A stretch of 64,000 bases of DNA, from positions 3,200,001 through 3,264,000 of the forward strand of contig NC_008609.1 in the NCBI RefSeq assembly GCF_000015045.1, in the 5' to 3' direction. A program made the translations under genes and the position numbers. This document shows positions 51,360-54,346 of the stretch, one piece after another (position 1 is the first letter of the stretch; each line of letters starts with the position of its first letter). Below the pieces are notes generated by a model. The model saw only the letters and a program-made list of their open reading frames with translations, had not been told where the DNA came from and did no database searches. This DNA is from Pelobacter propionicus DSM 2379 (lineage in GTDB: Bacteria > Desulfobacterota > Desulfuromonadia > Geobacterales > Pseudopelobacteraceae).

Positions 51360-51689
51360 TCAGTCGTTATTCCCCCAGGTATCCACGAACCTGCACTTGT
51401 GCAGGTAGTTCTGCACATTCACCTCGCCGATGATGGCCTCGGCCTCCTCGGCGGACAGGCCGATCTTGGGACGGACTCCCATCCAGTGAGTCGCGCTGCT
51501 GGTCGATTCATCCAGAGGGCGCGGCAGCGGCGGTCCCGGCCGGTAGAGTTCATTCACGAACAGCATGGCCTCATACCAGTGCAGTCGCTTGACAAGCTTG
51601 ACCTCAACCAGCATGCCGTTGGAGAGGGTTTTCTCCACAATTGTTTCAACAGGTTGCGCATCCTCGGGGAGTTTATGGGTTTCGGACAT
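51360..51689 (-). CDS. Unknown protein under GEMM riboswitch control
   Basis: This 109-residue soluble, acidic protein starts MSETHKLPEDAQPVETIVEK. The middle (NGMLVEVKLVKRLHWYEAML) looks like a small beta-rich unit and the end (LSAEEAEAIIGEVNVQNYLH) is helical. There is no signal peptide, membrane segment or known motif, and I do not recognise the family. AAGGAGGACACACT is a strong ribosome site. The leader holds a promoter, a GEMM aptamer and a terminator ending 48 bases before the ATG, so expression should respond to a cyclic dinucleotide. Confidence 0.85.
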   Translation of the reverse strand: MSETHKLPEDAQPVETIVEKTLSNGMLVEVKLVKRLHWYEAMLFVNELYRPGPPLPRPLDESTSSATHWMGVRPKIGLSAEEAEAIIGEVNVQNYLHKCRFVDTWGNND

Positions 51690-51736
51690 AGTGTGTCCTC
51701 CTTTTCTGCACTAAAAGCCGTTTCCAAGCTGAAACG

Positions 51737-51767
51737 AAAAATTCCACTTCTTCTTTCGAAAAAGTGG
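51737..51767 (-). terminator. Riboswitch expression-platform terminator
   Basis: On the minus strand CCACTTTTTC pairs with GAAGAAGTGG (10 bp including one U-G pair) around GAAA, followed by AATTTTT. It stands between the GEMM aptamer and the 109-residue gene. Confidence 0.85.
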
Positions 51768-51799
51768 ACGCGCGGCGACCGTCACCCTGTGGTGACAAG

Positions 51800-51885
51800 C
51801 GCTGATACTTCGGCGGCCCCTCTGCCCGGCCTGGGAGGTGGCTTTGCGTCATCCGGTTCCCCGGATTTTGCCTTTTCGGTTTCTG
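51800..51885 (-). promoter_or_regulatory. GEMM-I (cyclic di-GMP class I type) riboswitch aptamer
   Basis: On the minus strand GGCAAA (51872-51867) is followed by the hairpin ATCCGG-GGAA-CCGGAT, whose GGAA is a GNRA tetraloop, then GACGCAAAGCC (51850-51840). This is the conserved GEMM core; GGC pairs with GCC. The position equal to G20 of the Vibrio Vc2 aptamer is G, which favours c-di-GMP over cGAMP. A second arm (AGGCC ... GGCC) follows. The outer boundaries are approximate. Confidence 0.88.
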
Positions 51886-51942
51886 TCACTATTCAGTTGT
51901 GGGGACTCAGACAGAGTCCAGTGCATCGATCCAGTCTCAGCA

Positions 51943-51971
51943 CTTATAGCGAAACAGGGCACATTTTGCAA
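51943..51971 (-). promoter_or_regulatory. Promoter of the riboswitch transcript
   Basis: On the minus strand TTGCAA (51971-51966), a 17-base spacer and TATAAG (51948-51943). Transcription would begin near 51936, about 60 bases before the aptamer core. Confidence 0.6.
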
Positions 51972-53111: not shown

Positions 53112-53284
53112 CCAATCCGCTCACCTCGCCGCCAGGCGGTCACGGGTGGTGCCTGTTCTCCCGTTCATGCCTGGCCCATCCGGGGGACGGGATCGAGAGA
53201 CTTGTCACAAAGACGAATAAAGGTGTACTGTTAGCTCCCCAGGATTCCGTGTACCCGGGCCAGGGAAATAACCGCCACAGCGCC

Positions 53285-54346
53285 ATGAAGGGAGAACCAG
53301 CGTTGAATGCCACGACAGACAGGGCTATAGGATCGAAAAAACCGTTCCCCTTTCCCGGCCTGATCACCTGGGTCGCCTCCCTGGCGGGAATGGGGCTGTC
53401 CCTGGAGGCTGTGTTCAAGATCTGCGGCTCCTGCAGCGTAACGGCCGACTACCGCCTCTTCGGCATGGAGTTCGGCTGGGTCGGCATCGGCTTCTTCGCG
53501 CTGCTGCTCCCCCTGCTCGCCCTGCGGGGCAGGTCCGCCTGCTGCGCCTGGCTGGCACTGCTGCTGCTGTTCGCGGCGGCAGGCGCGGAGGCACGCTTCA
53601 TCTGGATCCAGAAATACGAGATCGGCCAGTGGTGTCCGATCTGCCTCTCCCTCGCGGCAACGATTTTTCTGGCCTGCGCCGGCGTCACCTGGGAGCGTTT
53701 GCGTACCTTATCAGCCAAAGGAGCACCCATGAAATCAAAACTGATCCACTTCGTCCTTGTCTCGCTGTTTTTCGTCATGGGGCTGGGAACCGCCACAGTC
53801 GGCGTCAACAGACAGGCCGATGCCGCCGAACCGGACCTGTTCCTGGGCAAGCGCTCCAGCCCGACCACGGTCTACTTCGTCAGCGACTGGTTCTGTCCGG
53901 CCTGCAGGAAGGCCGAGCCGGCCATCGAGAGTATCTATCCGGAGTTGGCCAGGTCGGTCAGGATCGGCTTCGTTGATTTCCCGATCCACCGGGAGACCAC
54001 CAACTTCACCCCCTTCAACCTCCAGTTTCTGACATTCGAAAAGGCAAAGTACATCAGCCTGCGCAGGGCCCTGTCCGATCTGTCGCTCAGGACCAGGACC
54101 CCCAGCGAGGCCGAGGTTTCAGCCGCCATCGCCCACCTGGGGGTCAGGCTCAGGCCGATCAACTATGCCGACACGCTCTACGGCATGCAGGCGAACCTGA
54201 CGGTCTACCGCGGCTTCAATGTTCATTCCACCCCCACGGTGGTGGTGACCAACGCCAAAACAAAAAAAAGCAGGCTGCTGGTGGGGGACAACCGGATCAA
54301 TCCGGTAACGGTCAGGGCTGCCATCGCGGAAGTTGAGCGCAACTGA
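53285..54346 (+). CDS. VKOR-family membrane protein fused to a thioredoxin-like domain
   Basis: This protein of about 353 residues makes or transfers disulfides in the periplasm. The first half has four or five membrane helices with VKOR-type Cys pairs: CGSCS near the loop and the active-site WCPIC. The second half is a DsbA-like thioredoxin fold with CPAC in SDWFCPACRKAEP and cis-Pro in HSTPTVVV. An internal ATG at 53729, with AAAGGAGCACCC just upstream and a signal-like helix after it (KLIHFVLVSLFFVMGLG), may give a separate second product. The main start is uncertain: ATG 53285, or TTG 53303 with GGGAG. Confidence 0.88.
   Translation: MKGEPALNATTDRAIGSKKPFPFPGLITWVASLAGMGLSLEAVFKICGSCSVTADYRLFGMEFGWVGIGFFALLLPLLALRGRSACCAWLALLLLFAAAGAEARFIWIQKYEIGQWCPICLSLAATIFLACAGVTWERLRTLSAKGAPMKSKLIHFVLVSLFFVMGLGTATVGVNRQADAAEPDLFLGKRSSPTTVYFVSDWFCPACRKAEPAIESIYPELARSVRIGFVDFPIHRETTNFTPFNLQFLTFEKAKYISLRRALSDLSLRTRTPSEAEVSAAIAHLGVRLRPINYADTLYGMQANLTVYRGFNVHSTPTVVVTNAKTKKSRLLVGDNRINPVTVRAAIAEVERN

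Follow-up and report, generated by a model that had tools for sequence, protein, structure and literature searches.

A riboswitch of a known class stands in Pelobacter propionicus DSM 2379 before a gene from an undescribed, lineage-restricted protein family. The leader is probably a transcriptional c-di-GMP-I riboswitch through which high c-di-GMP represses this single small gene. Riboswitch control has proved a good guide to what a gene does, and here a known-ligand riboswitch points at a family that is confined to one order among the genomes searched and absent from the libraries searched. An unstudied protein family is thereby turned into a testable part of the c-di-GMP network, in a pairing that recurs in related soil and sediment bacteria. 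Within the paper library searched, none joins Pelobacter propionicus, a riboswitch and c-di-GMP.

Architecture of the leader

The window, which is the whole stretch of 64,000 nucleotides that was analysed, carries the following features of the leader and its gene.

51943-51971, minus strand: sigma-70-like promoter, TTGCAA (51971-51966), 17-nt spacer, TATAAG (51948-51943); 9 of 12 consensus bases
51809-51882, minus strand: c-di-GMP-I (GEMM-I) riboswitch aptamer; Rfam RF01051, 53.6 bits, gathering cutoff 35
51872, minus strand: ligand-selecting base equivalent to Vc2 G20, a G in the Rfam alignment
51871-51878, minus strand: P5, aptamer 5' strand CGAAAAGG, proposed antiterminator strand (consensus fold of 11 leaders; ensembles of shortened transcripts)
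51757-51764, minus strand: T, segment of the terminator 5' arm CUUUUUCG, predicted by folding as the partner of P5 in the antiterminator
51743-51768, minus strand: intrinsic terminator hairpin of 11 pairs, then ATTTTT (51742-51737); fold energy about -15 kcal/mol
51697-51703, minus strand: ribosome-binding site AAGGAGG, from the sequence
51360-51689, minus strand: open reading frame of a 109-residue protein, undescribed family, subfamily A; ATG at 51689

The initial annotation had placed a promoter, a GEMM core, a terminator with a T tract and a strong ribosome site with its ATG in this order, and had proposed a covariance search with RF01051. Run over the whole window, that search gave a significant match (E 1.1e-7); the promoter hexamers, the ribosome site and the start codon are where they had been placed, and the terminator is present, with 11 pairs rather than the ten given for it. 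The aptamer scores 66.4 bits with our own model R1, among whose building sequences it is itself included. In the Rfam alignment the equivalent of A47 is an A at 51845 and the CC of the 3' strand lies at 51813-51812. The c-di-GMP-I-GGC model (RF03167) gives 46.4 bits for this aptamer against a gathering cutoff of 59, and both RF03167 and RF03168 match members of this riboswitch-gene unit, all below their own cutoffs. We regard assignment to the GEMM-I class as practically certain. A chance origin is excluded by the covariance score together with the conservation of the unit in related genomes.

A strict scan for consensus promoters listed none here because the -10 hexamer ends in G. The promoter is credible because orthologous leaders have, in a similar place, hexamers that read TTGACA-17-CATAnT or differ little from it. 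Both promoter and terminator are conserved among the orthologous GEMM leaders.

Elsewhere in the window we observed a ParE-type toxin gene (48817-48515, minus strand), whose small upstream neighbor is probably the antitoxin (pair 49106-48515), and a gene (53207-54343, plus strand) that encodes VKOR and thioredoxin-like domains in one chain.

The 109-residue family and its link to the riboswitch

The product had been described as a protein of unknown function, and this description held: the 109-residue protein has no match in Pfam, NCBIfam, PADLOC or the PDB, and 64 homologues match no Pfam or NCBIfam family at a convincing E-value. The AlphaFold model (pLDDT 90) consists of strands followed by one helix. 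Structure searches returned no convincing PDB match (best Foldseek E 0.62, best VIA Z 4.9), an absence that is not equivalent to a new fold.

A search for the protein's family and for the genes beside its homologues, also proposed in the initial annotation, recovered the family and found recurrent neighbors. Of the 76 genomes from the same taxonomic family, 49 carry a homologue; the profile of the protein family detected homologues in 91 of the order's 141 genomes and in none of 136 further genomes of the class. A contig search with the single protein found nothing, and one with the family alignment found 63 loci. We divided the homologues among subfamily A, with 25 loci that are 54-68% identical to the window protein, and subfamilies B and C; in the tree, B does not strictly form a single group.

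At 11 of the 25 subfamily-A loci, one of them truncated at a contig end, a GEMM-I aptamer stands immediately upstream on the same strand. The 42 further family loci that were searched (subfamilies B and C) have none in that position and weak GEMM matches at most, the best about 800 nt upstream (L140/L233). No GEMM was found near the Geomonas or Geobacter homologues. The chance of a GEMM upstream is about 0.004 per gene, as each genome has about 16 aptamers for several thousand genes. A binomial value computed from this is too small, since the loci share ancestry, but chance is no serious option for the linkage of GEMM and subfamily A. Control of the 109-residue gene, originally proposed from the layout, no longer rests on one layout because the same arrangement recurs at these close homologues, and we are confident that the window GEMM controls this gene. 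The protein is a predicted target of c-di-GMP control; to call it a new effector of cyclic dinucleotide signalling, as had been suggested, goes too far.

The remaining 14 subfamily-A genes lack a GEMM, and one of these loci (L095) has only the 3' end of the aptamer and the terminator, a decayed copy. GEMM presence falls on both sides of the deepest split within subfamily A, where several losses or gains are needed; on the tree, GEMM state requires at least three changes, seven by parsimony. The many subfamily-A genes without a GEMM are one point in favor of reading the window aptamer as real but a non-regulating relic, or as mainly serving a longer transcript. The latter would include a CorA-like gene on the same strand, some 400 nt further downstream, so that the earlier description of the 109-residue gene as the only gene in reach was nearly right; only a weak terminator-like match separates the two genes, and the antiterminator is weak. 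Against the relic, the window and the sister genome both retain an intact aptamer core, terminator, P5-T pairing and ribosome site; against the longer transcript, the CorA-like adjacency is absent in the sister genome and forms no recurrent cluster among homologues. We hold this explanation to be very unlikely.

Ligand and predicted direction of the switch

We mapped the Vc2 numbering onto the Rfam positions. On this numbering the alignments agree with the earlier prediction of c-di-GMP from a G at the position of Vc2 G20, and G stands there in all leaders of this unit. The P. propionicus genome holds 16 GEMM-I aptamers, and five others (L011-L015) have A at position 20, the cGAMP signature. 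These five, together with the use of cGAMP by relatives through GEMM-Ib, could suggest that the window aptamer answers cGAMP, or both dinucleotides. The A20 of cGAMP GEMM-Ib is, however, absent from the window and from every leader of this unit, and a cGAMP riboswitch from Geobacter becomes a c-di-GMP one when its A20 is changed to G (PMC6456294), which makes a response to cGAMP very unlikely. Because position 20 is G, c-di-GMP is the predicted ligand, and very likely the right one.

Several other aptamers of this genome have features of their own. Most of the five A20 GEMMs have an ON-type layout, and about 220 nt separate the starts of L011 and L013. The start of L012 precedes that of the G20-type L001 by about 260 nt; these two may be a mixed cGAMP/c-di-GMP pair ahead of a single protein that looks secreted. 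L009, L010 and L016 are GEMM-like aptamers with GCACA for GCAAA that form a distinct sub-group with a common terminator style.

We folded 11 leaders, ten of the 109-residue gene and one paralogous leader (L003). Their RNAalifold consensus is not the terminator but a long-range helix between the aptamer 5' strand GAAAAGGCA and the terminator 5' arm UGCCUUUUC. In transcripts cut before the terminator 3' arm, each of the 11 leaders is expected to form 7.7-9.8 pairs of the P5-T helix. When the T arm is shuffled the mean falls to 1.0-2.7 pairs, and for nine leaders no more than one shuffle in 60 comes up to the observed value; for the window leader the figures are 7.7 pairs against a shuffled mean of 1.3, a number of pairs that none of 60 shuffles attained. 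Of the 25 other GEMM leaders in which a terminator can be recognised, most have fewer than two P5-T pairs and only two exceed five. If the helix is forbidden, the cut transcripts lose 3.6-9.8 kcal/mol (4.2 in the window). For the window alone, the energies of the plain duplex of P5 and the T arm are not significant and the whole-transcript ensemble is. With the aligned terminator, L097 and L153 show the pairing; the HD-GYP leaders L149-L151 and L157 lack this design. The terminator stem of most orthologues has a bulged C that is paired only in the antiterminator. No compensatory changes in the antiterminator occur among the 11 leaders, because P5 is needed by the aptamer and is nearly invariant.

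The P5-T helix takes G20, and in most leaders also G21 and C22, so that the ligand cannot bind while the helix is formed. Because no part of the terminator falls within the aptamer, it is not blocked by the ligand-bound fold. The computed features are thus those of an OFF switch: the terminator is separate from the aptamer, and an antiterminator built with one aptamer strand competes with it. As the P5-T pairing can form before the terminator in 11 of 11 leaders, an OFF switch is predicted, and by these folding models it is likely that c-di-GMP represses. As RNA polymerase passes the terminator 5' arm, the ligand-free P5 strand (with G20 and G21) would pair with this arm and the terminator would be prevented; bound c-di-GMP would hold the 5' strand in the aptamer, the terminator would form and the gene would be off. 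The window antiterminator, with eight pairs including one G-U, is among the weaker ones, and at equilibrium the terminator wins over it by about 8 kcal/mol. The full-length RNA so strongly favors the terminator that regulation would have to be kinetic.

A c-di-GMP ON switch would follow the Geobacter riboswitches, which turn genes on in response to cGAMP (PMC9262584, PMC6456294), and this genome has ON-type layouts in which the aptamer 3' strand GCCGGGU is complementary to the terminator 3' arm, for example in L012 and L013. In the window, however, the terminator stem (51768-51743) is 40 nt past the aptamer, the two have no strand in common and the ligand therefore cannot directly block the terminator; the conserved alternative pairing is P5-T. 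An ON switch is therefore improbable here, and repression by c-di-GMP remains the preferred direction.

Partner genes, possible role and known platforms

Just downstream of the subfamily-A gene, 17 of the 25 loci encode a 65-residue orphan protein (LRRELRxSMGDRxKLSKLHS...), and at five of the 25 loci a gene for a 320-residue HD-GYP protein then follows. A GEMM-I aptamer is upstream of this HD-GYP gene at 10 of its 15 best loci, among them the copy in P. propionicus itself, and at three of them with the subfamily-A gene between. In the genome of the window, a separate locus (C3:313934-315395, L003/L153) carries an orphan gene, similar to that of the 65-residue protein, and the HD-GYP gene behind a GEMM leader with the P5-T design of the window and a nearly identical aptamer core. 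The subfamily-A gene of the window stands alone, apart from these two. This distribution fits an ancestral unit of GEMM, subfamily-A gene, 65-residue orphan and HD-GYP gene that was split with the leader kept on both parts; repeated joining of the genes is the alternative.

The 320-residue protein aligns with the HD-GYP proteins PmGH (4mcw), cGAMP-specific phosphodiesterase 3 (5z7c) and Bd1817 (3tm8), and the structures closest to it include a cGAMP phosphodiesterase. The H, HD, H and HH of the metal site are kept, and the D in nearly all members. It differs from these HD-GYP proteins in having HDxGM throughout for HDxGK, and its enzymatic activity is putative.

Paralogues give a further context. 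In subfamily C, most genes are arranged divergently from a gene of MoxR type. In subfamily B, most occupy the third place of an mglB-mglA operon; relatives have a subfamily-B paralogue between mglA and a tRNA-Ser gene. The window contains mglB (14918-14427), mglA (14405-13821) and tRNA-Ser (13692-13603), all on the minus strand, and the paralogue is missing there. Subfamily B is absent from this genome, in which no family member was found besides the GEMM-controlled copy. At L041, L042, L045, L046, L106, L108 and L118 we also observed sub-threshold Rfam matches to a plastid 3'UTR, antisense to tRNA-Ser; these are evidently a tRNA-derived artefact.

Bacteria in a low-c-di-GMP state are often motile. 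The product would work in this state together with the 65-residue orphan and the HD-GYP protein, its neighbors or co-regulated partners in relatives. In Myxococcus, MglA and MglB set polarity and stimulate type IV pili (PMC7519303, PMC9481161). Expression at low c-di-GMP and the context of the paralogues together suggest, through guilt by association, a motility or polarity adaptor; that its role lies close to MglA-type polarity or to the control of type IV pili is a tentative possibility. A still more speculative and rather doubtful proposal is that a 5'-strand OFF riboswitch, copied as an ancestral operon split, holds a new adaptor family and an HD-GYP protein in one low-c-di-GMP regulon, the adaptor acting on MglA-type polarity or type IV pili; if the HD-GYP protein degrades c-di-GMP, the motile state would be self-reinforcing. 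The recurrent neighbors (the second orphan and the HD-GYP gene) and the mglBA-linked paralogues offer concrete tests.

The window aptamer resembles Vc2 and the RF01051 consensus in its conserved bases, G20, the A and C of the pocket and the GNRA loop on P2 (GGAA); it differs in that its target gene comes from an undescribed protein family. With Cd1 of Clostridioides difficile, a transcriptional c-di-GMP OFF switch, it shares the predicted OFF logic, an aptamer-compatible terminator competing with an antiterminator (PMC9262584). The Cd1 antiterminator uses the aptamer 3' (A) strand (PMC9262584), whereas the 5' (P) strand is predicted for the window. The Geobacter GEMM-Ib cGAMP switches (pilM, pgcA) belong to the same aptamer clan, occur in neighboring lineages and have counterparts elsewhere in this genome, but they have A20, respond to cGAMP and use the aptamer 3' strand in the terminator, as described for pilM (PMC9262584), so that the ligand turns the gene on. 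The predicted use of the 5' strand in the antiterminator thus differs from Cd1 and pilM, the two platforms compared, and we make no claim of novelty for it. If the prediction is true, an OFF switch beside cGAMP-type ON layouts would be a natural comparison of one aptamer fold wired in opposite ways.
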